DNA of 5,257 bases, taken from the NCBI GenBank assembly GCA_028065135.1, contig JAPTWR010000210.1:1-5257 (forward strand), in the 5' to 3' direction. This DNA is from Acidithiobacillus sp. GTDB taxonomy: Bacteria; Pseudomonadota; Gammaproteobacteria; Acidithiobacillales; Acidithiobacillaceae. Below, in pieces: positions 2,765 through 4,509 of this stretch (position 1 is its first letter; each line of letters begins with the position of its first letter). The notes below the pieces were generated by a model. It was not told where the DNA came from. It made no database searches and was given only the letters and a program-made list of their open reading frames with translations. The position numbers and the translations under genes are program-made.

Positions 2765-2883
2765 GGACGTTTCCTTGTGTTGGATGCTTCCACCATCTTG
2801 GCTAAACCCTGCAGTGCTGCCGCTTTTGGGTTGGCTACCTTATGAGTATTCTGGTGTCCAGATAGACCATCAATAACCTTCAT
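2761..2883 (-). CDS. Possible small ORF of unknown function, coupled to the GNAT gene
   Basis: ATG at 2881-2883 opens a 40-residue frame beginning [15 protein letters not shown], continuing through an Ala/Leu-rich helix-like stretch ([13 protein letters not shown]) and ending NTRKRP. Its TGA (2761-2763) overlaps the GNAT start as ATGA, a common sign of translational coupling. The start lies inside the end of the Phd gene in another frame, and it also covers the vapC stub. No good ribosome-binding site is seen. I do not recognise the protein. It might be a real leader peptide, the tail of a lost gene that once preceded the GNAT gene, or chance. Confidence 0.3.
2835..2870 (-). pseudogene. vapC (PIN-domain toxin) stub, 11 codons
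   Basis: The last A of the Phd stop codon (TGATG) is shared with an ATG that reads [11 protein letters not shown] and then hits TAG. M-V-Y-L-D-T-x-I-L-I is the standard first strand of a VapC PIN-domain toxin, including the first catalytic Asp (D5). A complete VapC has about 130 residues, so everything after the first strand is missing. Neither of the other two frames continues with PIN-like sequence before the GNAT gene. The start-stop overlap is exactly what is expected of a phd-vapC operon, which supports a real relic over a chance match. Confidence 0.65.
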
Positions 2884-3112
2884 CACGGATTGCACGAATC
2901 ATTTCGGTACTGGAATGCCGCATTTTAGGCAATTGCGCCCGAAAATCAGCCAGGGATGGCAAGGGAACGATCGGCTGCTGCACAGGAACAACTCGGGCCA
3001 CCGGTTTGCCGCACCGAGTGATCACCAACTCCTCACCCGCCTCCACCCGATCCAGAACGTGGCTCAAGTGTGCTTTGGCTTCGGCCAGTGCGATAGATAC
3101 AAAGGATTCCAT
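2870..3112 (-). CDS. Phd/YefM-family antitoxin (VapB partner type)
   Basis: An 80-residue protein with the Phd/YefM N-terminal DNA-binding and dimer domain: [21 protein letters not shown] (6-26) followed by [17 protein letters not shown] (27-43). The acidic/hydrophobic C-terminal tail ([27 protein letters not shown], in 54-80) is the toxin-binding part typical of antitoxins paired with VapC RNases. A strong AGGAGG (3119-3124) six bases upstream fixes the start. Length is normal and the gene looks intact. Its toxin, which should overlap its stop codon, is cut to 11 codons. As in other Phd systems it probably represses its own promoter in the 3113-3180 gap, though no clear operator is visible there. 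Confidence 0.88.
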
Positions 3113-3180
3113 AGGACGCCTCCTTTGGTCATGTAGATCGGTAACCCCGATATCCCCAGGCCATTCTTCGTGTAATCCAG

Positions 3181-3630
3181 TTATTCACGGGGCAAAATCT
3201 CTTCATTCAGTTCAGGAATCGTGACACCCAGCTCTTTGGCCCAGCCAGCCAACAAGTGGACAGTTCCCGATGCCGTGGCATAGCCGTCTTCTGCATCTCG
3301 CCTGCCAAATAGCTGCCTTATGCTCGCACCTTCTGGCAGAGATTCCGGATAACGCGTCAGAATATAAAATTTATCCAGCCGGATCGGTTCCAGATCGTCG
3401 AGCTGATTATCCTGGGGCAGGTTAATCATCAACTTCGCAATGGAGTGCGTGGTTATTGCTTTGCCGTCGGCCGCCATAATACCTTTCATGGCTTTTTCCA
3501 CGGACTGTTGCGCGTAAAAACAAGACTGAGCGTAATGTCCTGTATACAATAGTGTTTTAGAGGCTTTTAGCTCATCAAATGCCGCATCAAACCACTGCCT
3601 ACTGCGATCCAGTCGTGCCTCATCGCTCAT
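3181..3630 (-). CDS. HEPN-domain protein, partner of the nucleotidyltransferase
   Basis: A 149-residue, mostly helical HEPN protein of the PF05168 type. Signature parts are the first helix [18 protein letters not shown] (11-28), the [13 protein letters not shown] segment (38-50), THSI (61-64) and [11 protein letters not shown] (87-97). HEPN proteins pair with minimal nucleotidyltransferases and are either RNase toxins or substrate-binding helpers. The canonical RNase motif R-x4-6-H is not found here: neither H62 nor H125 has an Arg 5-7 residues before it. So RNase activity is doubtful. I chose the ATG at 3628-3630, preceded by GAGGTG (3635-3640) and overlapping the end of the upstream gene by 11 bases. 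An extended in-frame start at 3723 would add 31 residues not typical of the family. Confidence 0.88.
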
Positions 3631-4024
3631 AAAGCACCTCGTTATTTCTGAGGCATTCCTGCTGTATCCCATTGCACCCTTGCATTTCCTTTTCCCATTC
3701 CGATCTTGTCCAAACGATGGCATCGCAACCGAAAGGCATCCTGGCCTGAATGACGGCCTCCATAGCCATCTGTTGTCTTTTTAGCCAGGGAACATCATCC
3801 AGACCAGGGCCACTGACAATCAACAGGTCTATGTCAGAATCTTCGGTAGCCGTCCGGCGCGCCACCGAACCAAAGACCCAGACAACATCGGGATCAAACA
3901 AATCGATGATAGAAGGTAAAAGCTTTTCTCTGGTGATCTGCAAGTAATCCTCAGACAGTTGTCGACAGGCAGCGAGACGATCCGCCTTCATCTTTTGAAG
4001 CACCACTTTAGTTATAGTACCCAT
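3620..4024 (-). CDS. Minimal nucleotidyltransferase (MNT, DNA polymerase beta superfamily)
   Basis: A 134-residue protein with the defining G-S-x10-D-x-D motif: FGSVARRTATEDSDIDLLIV (51-70), so G52-S53 and metal ligands D64 and D66, plus a third acidic residue D101 in GCDAIVW. Such proteins move a nucleotide from NTP to a target; in MntA-HepT systems the MNT acts as antitoxin by AMP-modifying the HEPN toxin. The HEPN partner follows directly with an 11-base overlap, a typical coupled pair. AAGGGG (4031-4036) six bases upstream supports the ATG at 4022-4024. That start lies inside the parE stub in another frame, so the module begins where parE was severed. Confidence 0.9.
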   Translation of the reverse strand: MGTITKVVLQKMKADRLAACRQLSEDYLQITREKLLPSIIDLFDPDVVWVFGSVARRTATEDSDIDLLIVSGPGLDDVPWLKRQQMAMEAVIQARMPFGCDAIVWTRSEWEKEMQGCNGIQQECLRNNEVLYER

Positions 4025-4100
4025 GAGTATCCCCTTTCGAAAGGATATCCACGATATCCACTTCCGCCTGCCTTGCGACGCGCAGCGTCCAACTGGTCAT
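4008..4100 (-). pseudogene. parE toxin stub, 30 codons of which about 21 are ParE-like
   Basis: The parD stop overlaps an ATG as ATGA (4097-4100), the usual parDE coupling. The frame reads MTSWTLRVARQAEVDIVDIL, matching the N-terminal strand and first helix of RelE/ParE-superfamily toxins (R-x-A-x-x-D-I-x-D-I). It then goes to S-K-G-D and meets TAA at 4008-4010. A full ParE has about 100 residues; the core sheet and basic C-terminus are absent. The changeover falls near the ribosome-binding site of the following nucleotidyltransferase, consistent with a junction between two modules at about 4037-4042. Confidence 0.65.
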
Positions 4101-4381
4101 TCATGATCCTGCAGTGCCTGATTGGTCAAGGTGCTGATGTGGGCGCGCAAATCAGCAGCCGAATTCATGGCGGTGTAACGGCCGGCCTCGATGTCTTCAA
4201 TACCAAGCACCACGGCTTCACGCAATACTTTCAGGCGCACCGCATCATCGCGCTCACGTTGCTCGACCAGGCGCAGGCCCTCGCGCAGAACTTCGCTGGC
4301 GTTCTGGTAACGCCCAGAGTCAACCAACTGCTGGACAAAAGAAGCCTGGTGAGGGGTAAGTACAACATTGCGCGTGGGCAT
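4097..4381 (-). CDS. parD: ParD-family antitoxin
   Basis: A 94-residue protein matching type II ParD antitoxins: an N-terminal ribbon-helix-helix (NVVLTPHQASFVQQLV, 5-20, then SGRYQNASEVLREGLRLVEQRE, 22-43) that binds DNA as a dimer. The C-terminal arm (LREAVVLGIEDIEAGRYTAM, 53-72) is the part that blocks ParE, an inhibitor of DNA gyrase. The start at 4379-4381 is favoured by GGAGG (4387-4391) five bases upstream; a longer version from 4396 would add five residues and overlap the vapC stub. The gene looks complete. A promoter and palindrome that could serve autoregulation lie at 4409-4442. Its toxin is reduced to a stub. Confidence 0.88.
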   Translation of the reverse strand: MPTRNVVLTPHQASFVQQLVDSGRYQNASEVLREGLRLVEQRERDDAVRLKVLREAVVLGIEDIEAGRYTAMNSAADLRAHISTLTNQALQDHE

Positions 4382-4392
4382 GACAGCCTCCA

Positions 4393-4509
4393 TCATTTAG
4401 AATGAACTGGCATATTATGCCATCGTTGGATTGGCATGTGGAACACCGCCTGACTGGTTGCGGGCACCAGCCAGAGCAACGCAACAGAAGCATCCAAGAC
4501 AAAATTCAT
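4393..4509 (-). pseudogene. vapC (PIN-domain toxin) stub, 38 codons of which about 20 are VapC-like
   Basis: The stop codon of the upstream antitoxin overlaps an ATG as ATGA (4506-4509). The frame starts MNFVLDASVALLWLVPATSQ, the typical first strand and helix of a PIN-domain VapC RNase, with the first catalytic Asp at D6. The next 18 residues (through HMPIQRWHNMP) are not VapC-like and coincide with the parD promoter/operator; a TGA follows at 4393-4395. A full VapC has about 130-140 residues, so the catalytic quartet is lost and the product cannot be an active RNase. Overlap and order match an intact vapBC operon up to the break. Confidence 0.72.
4409..4442 (-). promoter_or_regulatory. Probable parD promoter with overlapping palindromic operator
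   Basis: On the minus strand a -35-like TCCACA (4437-4442) is followed after 17 bases by CATAAT (4414-4419, 5 of 6 to the -10 consensus). The -10 lies inside the palindrome GGCATA-T-TATGCC (4409-4421). A further ATGCC half-site occurs near 4433-4437, spaced to form an inverted repeat with the palindrome. Ribbon-helix-helix antitoxins usually repress from such sites over their own promoter, so this is a likely ParD operator (inference). It lies within the vapC stub, meaning parD came with its own control region. Confidence 0.5.

Follow-up and report, generated by a model that had tools for sequence, protein, structure and literature searches.

Toxin Remnants beside Their Antitoxin Genes in a Row of Toxin–Antitoxin Modules of Acidithiobacillus

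Introduction

Loss of toxin genes with retention of the antitoxin genes has been described for several toxin–antitoxin (TA) systems of Xanthomonas, and the excerpted text of that study also raises the idea of anti-addiction (PMC4861877). Klebsiella and Escherichia coli have abundant orphan antitoxins, which the excerpts of two surveys read as degrading pairs or as possible anti-addiction genes (PMC7192599, PMC10790755). For A. ferrooxidans ATCC 23270, the covered part of a TA study gives 29 pairs, two of which (TA 13 and TA 19) have a pseudogene as toxin (PMC4226512). Here we describe a stretch of 5257 nucleotides from Acidithiobacillus sp. (assembly GCA_028065135.1, contig JAPTWR010000210.1, positions 1 to 5257), referred to as the window, in which TA modules with severely shortened toxin genes lie in a row on the minus strand.

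The locus resembles the Xanthomonas case in that toxins were lost and antitoxins retained in several systems within one genus. It differs from what the excerpts of that study describe in that four remnants lie in one 2.3-kb row, where the side that erodes last can be read from the surviving toxin ends, and in that broken copies are compared with intact relatives at the base level (PMC4861877). With the Klebsiella and E. coli surveys it shares the many antitoxins that have no toxin partner. As far as their excerpts go, those surveys count orphans, and the one in E. coli finds orphan toxins to be abundant too, whereas in none of the 22 broken copies studied here is the toxin whole and the antitoxin broken; as the searches were designed differently, this is no contradiction (PMC7192599, PMC10790755). 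The A. ferrooxidans study concerns the same genus, and neither serial remnants nor the shape of toxin remains was met in the part of its text covered here (PMC4226512). The small part of the open-licence literature that was covered held no description of survival of the antitoxin-proximal toxin end. That toxins are lost while antitoxins stay has been published before, and the row is a real example of this known process. It offers a clean, countable picture of the death of TA modules, toxin first and eroding toward the antitoxin, in either gene order.

Results and Discussion

Toxin Remnants and Antitoxins of the Row

The window was compared by blastn with 17 genomes of the genus (referred to by G numbers) and with stretches fetched from those genomes, and the toxins of relatives were searched against it by tblastn. 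As a first-pass annotation of the sequence had proposed, the minus strand holds three antitoxin-first modules in which every toxin is cut early, with 21 codons of vapC1, 20 of parE and 7 of vapC2 remaining. The tblastn matches are limited to the toxin starts: residues 1–21 of VapC1 at 4509–4447 (stub at 4443..4509), residues 1–21 of ParE at 4100–4038, with the common DNA ending at 4041, around codon 20 (stub at 4041..4100), and residues 1–7 of VapC2 at 2873–2853 (stub at 2851..2873; six codons when counted from the ATG). Stub sizes of 20, 21 and 10 codons had been suggested, which is about right for the first two and too long for the third. The missing parts of VapC1, ParE and VapC2 had no credible match in the window when the whole toxins were used as tblastn queries, a search that did not include BrnT.

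Intact versions of these toxins, for which the same annotation had proposed a check, do exist in relatives. VapC1 (141 amino acids) is whole in G002, G016, G017 and G019, ParE (112 amino acids) in G004, and VapC2 (146–151 amino acids) in G001, G003 and G013; both genes of the module are open in these four, one and three genomes, respectively, and G002 carries a fourth full-length phd-vapC2 copy with a split toxin frame. By Pfam, the whole toxins of the relatives have PIN, ParE and PIN domains, and because the window stubs match their starts, these stubs are PIN and ParE starts, a likeness on which the first-pass reading had been made to depend. The open reading frames (ORFs) of the vapC1 and parE stubs had no Pfam match, and neither holds the complete toxin domain of a working TA module.

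A fourth toxin remnant carries the pattern out to 5101, beyond the extent of 2835..4509 that was first assigned to it and that encloses the other three modules. It consists of the last 14 codons and the stop of brnT (5057..5101, minus strand), reading YMHAKEASIYETSP before the stop in comparison with the intact BrnT of G015 (99 amino acids; PF04365). The brnT-brnA operon is toxin-first, and the codons that remain are again the antitoxin-proximal ones. In all four modules, the surviving piece is thus the end of the toxin that touches the antitoxin, whichever the gene order. As brnT-brnA is toxin-first, it is the antitoxin-proximal end, and not the 5′ end as such, that survives.

The antitoxins, all on the minus strand, are kept to different degrees. 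The first-pass description of them as intact is correct for parD (4097..4381; PF03693, 6.7e-12; 90% DNA identity to G004) and phd (2870..3112; PF02604, 4.5e-12; 95% DNA identity to G013), which are whole. It does not extend to the VapB-like ORF, in which only the C-terminal 30 of 81 residues of VapB1 remain (4506..4598; 100% identity over residues 52–81), fused at the break at 4598 to unrelated sequence, the N-terminal part being lost. The CopG-type antitoxin gene brnA (4801..5073; PF12441, 2.1e-24; 93% DNA identity to G015 over 4822–5102) is nearly whole, its last residues being replaced beyond about 4822, where a tumA scrap follows. ParD, Phd and CopG/BrnA are open genes above the Pfam cut-offs with no whole cognate toxin adjoining, and qualify as orphan antitoxins. 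VapB1, with 30 of 81 residues, does not, as this would take an open antitoxin gene.

Block Structure and Joins

The glycosyltransferase encoded at 422–1987 (minus strand) has best segments 82–92% identical to proteins of A. ferrivorans, A. ferrianus, A. ferriphilus and A. montserratensis, and positions 1–2853 match G011 contiguously at 98% DNA identity. These matches place the source of the window in an Acidithiobacillus near G011. From 2149 to 5102, the minus strand consists of a mosaic of gene pieces. The blastn matches define blocks at 1–2853, 2851–3138, 3202–4042, 4041–4438, 4443–4598, 4627–4793, 4786–4829, 4822–5102 and 5099–5257. Several of the block borders abut nearly base to base, and at the borders of the blocks the source genomes diverge from the window sequence. 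Positions 3139–3201 and 4599–4626 lie outside the blocks, the latter with a 30-bp match to G011 inside it.

The joins share 3 bases (2851–2853), 2 bases (4041–4042) and about 1 base (5102), and the join at 4438–4443 has about 4 extra bases. No common motif or recombination site was found at the four joins that were aligned. They look like products of end-joining or illegitimate recombination, and not of a site-specific recombinase. Integron-like cassettes, which the crisp block borders had suggested, were rejected because the joins have no sequence in common; Rfam at gathering scores gave no match in the window, and the search did not extend to attC folding or an integrase.

Other genomes hold comparable arrangements. 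At G001:C29:41466-41649, all that remains of phd-vapC3 is a 115-bp, a 35-bp and a 34-bp piece with no gap between them, the last of which comes from the very end of the module. In G013 (L061 10824-11602), the start of one glycosyltransferase gene, the end of another, the 3′ end of parE and a scrap of HEPN are followed by an intact phd-vapC2. Beside the same glycosyltransferase end, further scraps of parDE occur in G013 (the 3′ end of parE) and in G011 (a piece of parD). A 28-bp sequence that forms the 3′ end of vapC2 in G013 (L061 12350-12377) recurs in several genomes of the genus, several times no more than 130 bases from the start of a contig, and adjoins a vapC4 scrap in G014; it is possibly the end of an insertion sequence.

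Broken Modules across the Genus

Eight modules (parDE, vapBC1, phd-vapC2, abrB-vapC4, relBE, phd-vapC3, brnTA and tumEA, where relBE is our label for a Phd/ParE-type pair) were followed through the 17 genomes. Among 28 full-length matches, the antitoxin frame is uninterrupted from end to end in all save one, where 88 of 91 residues are open. The toxin is also wholly or mostly open in 25 of them, and in the other three it is split between frames next to an open antitoxin (phd-vapC2 in G002, phd-vapC3 in G004 and G008). Together with 19 partial copies, these three make up 22 broken copies. The antitoxin is kept to at least about 90% beside a broken or missing toxin in 10 of the 22, and none shows the reverse state, in which the toxin is whole and the antitoxin broken. 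Besides the three split-frame copies, the antitoxin-keepers are G015:C38 (start replaced), G002:C693 (77 of 81 residues), G001:C15 and G014:C66 (both with internal toxin deletions next to whole antitoxins), G002:C261 vapC3, G017:C123 and G004:C140 (about 106 of 118 residues). Beside the same glycosyltransferase gene, G002 has a whole antitoxin followed by vapC3 cut after 6 codons. The row had at first been taken for a pattern and not a single random loss, and the recurrence of the antitoxin-kept, toxin-lost state in other genomes of the genus bears this out.

The partial copies counted were G011 and G013 for parDE; G001:C15, G002:C693 and G015:C38 for vapBC1; G014:C66, G014:C298, G015:C64, G016:C46 and G002:C261 for abrB-vapC4; G001 and G002 for phd-vapC3; and G019 (twice), G009, G017:C123, G017:C141, G004 and G018 for tumEA. 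G017:C123 was retained though its toxin side reaches contig base 1. Matches that a contig end cuts or leaves unclear were dropped (G004:C150, both G001:C43 rows, G005:C23), as were the 28–31 bp repeat rows, matches below 59 bp (G003:C208, G009:C5, G015:C56, G006:C166) and those that were short with less than 80% identity (G002:C136, G003:C243, G005:C117, G006:C119).

Next, we focused on where the cuts fall. All three antitoxin-first cuts in the window lie within 21 codons, for which P is 0.004 under uniform cuts, a post hoc value. Outside the window, the toxin 5′ part of cut antitoxin-first copies ends after 0, 6, 9, 17, 20, 41 and 108 codons. Five of these seven cuts fall in the first 21 codons (P = 0.0015 if cuts were uniform, some copies having been seen before the test was designed). 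The fraction becomes 5/8 (P = 0.0034) with the ambiguous G015:C64, which has frameshifts in both genes, and 3/5 (P = 0.028) when G002 is counted once. Adding the three of the window gives 8/10 (P = 1e-5), but those three prompted the test. The three split-frame copies have full-length DNA and were excluded here. If this clustering of stubs holds in larger counts, sequence alone could be used to ask whether selection keeps orphan antitoxins, a question that the orphan-antitoxin surveys, in the text covered, do not settle.

Origin of the Row

We consider it probable that the row results from toxin-first decay, in which near-random deletions in a hypervariable island erode the toxin toward the antitoxin. 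No new kind of system is seen in the row, which shows an ordinary process, gene decay still under way, with unusual clarity. It is established in TA biology that a cell with a working toxin dies or is arrested once the antitoxin is lost. Many type II TA modules would have been acquired in the island and then worn by deletions and illegitimate joins. Loss of the toxin would be tolerated and loss of the antitoxin beside a working toxin would not, so that the surviving joins would fall in the toxin, ahead of the next antitoxin. Repeated rounds would shorten the toxin toward the antitoxin gene, which would last longer, and the outcome would be a row of antitoxins with the toxin 5′ end kept in vapBC, parDE and phd-vapC and the 3′ end kept in brnTA. 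Seen directly are the remnants and their whole counterparts in relatives, the sudden joins, the survival of the antitoxin-proximal toxin end in four window modules and the one-sided loss in the genus; the lethality of an unprotected toxin would act as the filter, and deletion would be the mechanism.

Several observations weigh against this explanation. The VapB of the window is itself cut. In the other 12 of the 22 broken copies, both partners are broken or lone fragments remain, including the parE 3′ end in G013, the G011 piece of parD and, in G002, the first 20 codons of a vapC4 that has no antitoxin, and copies within one genome are not independent. ParE profile matches in the genus are partial and may miss either end; the PIN and ParE profile searches are blind to stub length, as 20-codon stubs fall below the threshold. 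In the toxin-first tumE-tumA, the kept toxin ends measure about 47, 28 and 21 codons and none, and two of the four antitoxins in these cut copies are frameshifted. As the kept ends of tumEA are longer, the clustering of short stubs is limited to antitoxin-first modules. The only other toxin-first case is the brnT of the window, with 14 codons, no cut copy of brnTA having been found in the 17 genomes save one dropped 58-bp match.

Alternatively, the row may be an anti-addiction array, with antitoxins kept by selection to neutralise related toxins on mobile elements or elsewhere in the genome, as has been proposed for orphan antitoxins in the excerpts on Xanthomonas (PMC4861877) and Klebsiella (PMC7192599). 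ParD and Phd are whole, and toxin genes are plentiful in the genus, with 6–26 PIN profile matches per genome over the 17 genomes among the matches listed. The pairwise ratios of nonsynonymous to synonymous substitution rates (dN/dS) are 0.16 for parD versus G004 and 0.08–0.12 for phd versus G001–G003, compared with 0.08–0.11 for the glycosyltransferase. These pairs mostly reflect the time before toxin loss, the branch after the loss being too short to judge. Against its nearest relative, G013, phd has a dN/dS of 0.39, on only 5 synonymous and 6 other changes, and phd pairs with whole toxins (G001, G003, G013) have values of 0.12–0.56. Moreover, a VapB that has lost its N-terminal part and keeps 30 of 81 residues does not fit such an array, antitoxins elsewhere in the genus decay too, and G011, the closest genome compared, lacks DNA matches to both vapBC1 and phd-vapC2 and matches parD over just 115 bp. 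We therefore regard an anti-addiction array as unlikely. A related idea, that the antitoxin gene acts as a wall at which erosion stops since the antitoxin stays useful after toxin loss, which would make the row a stacked shield, strikes us as rather doubtful. If it were true, short antitoxin-proximal stubs would mark, in any genome, antitoxins kept by selection as shields.

Nested capture, which the first-pass annotation had offered and in which every module was inserted into the 5′ end of the toxin of the preceding one, would explain why all three antitoxin-first modules finish with a toxin start that the next module follows closely. The displaced toxin 3′ parts would then be expected downstream, and because none of VapC1, ParE or VapC2 was found in the window by tblastn, nested capture is not supported. 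In addition, brnT keeps its 3′ end and the four aligned joins have no common target, which makes this origin highly improbable. That only toxin 5′ ends are kept was an impression from some of the pieces: a brnT 3′ end, a GNAT 3′ end and an internal tumA scrap exist as well, and on these three a general capture at 5′ ends, which a dapC 5′ scrap had fitted, was rejected. An assembly artefact, in which unrelated contig ends were joined in silico, can practically be dismissed, as an overlap assembler would need more than the 1–3 shared or few extra bp of the four aligned joins, P0127 (longest contig 964 bp, shorter than the window; source not shown) matches at 100% the 60-residue ORF that crosses the join in vapB, and similar patchworks occur in other genomes, such as the abutting 115, 35 and 34 bp pieces in G001.

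The MNT-HEPN Pair and Other Features

One module of the row is unbroken. Between the parE stub and phd lies a complete MNT-HEPN pair with adjacent genes, so that the three cut modules first described do not make a row of cut modules only. The MNT nucleotidyltransferase gene (3620..4024, minus strand; PF01909, 2.5e-9) is 90–91% identical at the DNA level to two copies in G013, and its partner encodes a whole HEPN protein (3181..3630, minus strand; PF05168, 2.5e-18) with a C-terminal tail as in P0001 and P0002. An R-x(4-6)-H motif marks the RNase kind of HEPN toxin in MNT-HEPN pairs. Read by eye, the 149-residue HEPN protein does not contain this motif, and for this reason we do not file it as a ribonuclease toxin. 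A window-specific join at 3202 in the HEPN gene was considered and rejected, since P0001 and P0002 share the tail and G013 is the deviant. In G013 (L063 6216-8871), the MNT-HEPN pair occurs twice, about 1.8 kb apart, with identical block borders on both copies.

Two further scraps lie upstream of the vapB1 remnant. One is an internal 44-bp piece of tumA (4786..4829, minus strand), the HVO_A0114-type antitoxin of TumE (PF25212 and PF20126 for the whole genes). The other is the 3′ end of a GNAT gene with downstream DNA (4627..4793, minus strand), with its frame broken, 95% identical to G011 and 89% to G019 over part of its length. Whole ORFs of 172 amino acids with GNAT/FR47 Pfam matches are present in L059 and L071, and the gene is putatively TacT-like.

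The region is probably a decay island flanked by two glycosyltransferase genes. Its right border is the end of a glycosyltransferase gene that leaves the window (5103..5255, minus strand; 98% DNA identity to G011 and 92–94% to G013 and G004), encoding 392 amino acids in G011, with whole ORFs in L059, L061 and L064 (PF00534). Its left border is a whole GNAT acetyltransferase gene (2282..2764, minus strand; PF00583, 2.7e-17) that adjoins the vapC2-stub junction and lies within the G011 match of 1–2853. Next to it is the 5′ end of dapC, about 26 codons plus leader (2149..2276, minus strand); the match in G006 continues from the same GNAT gene into an ORF of 422 amino acids that is DapC by NCBIfam TIGR03538. 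A search of a plasmid database returned 26 records, each of which covers 4–5% of the query among the matches listed (best 20 of 26).

In G011 (L060 13653-14874), an exbB/tolQ-exbD/tolR pair (ExbD by Pfam) lies at the left border beside the GNAT gene, with no TA remains. As G011 has this pair at the border where the window has TA remains, the island site carries different cargo in different strains. Between exbD/tolR and GNAT, a plus-strand frame at 2766–2845 resembles the start of a PIN toxin. A 78-bp stretch overlapping it matched only G011 among the loci compared, and the frame may be a fifth stub, in opposite orientation, or a product of chance.

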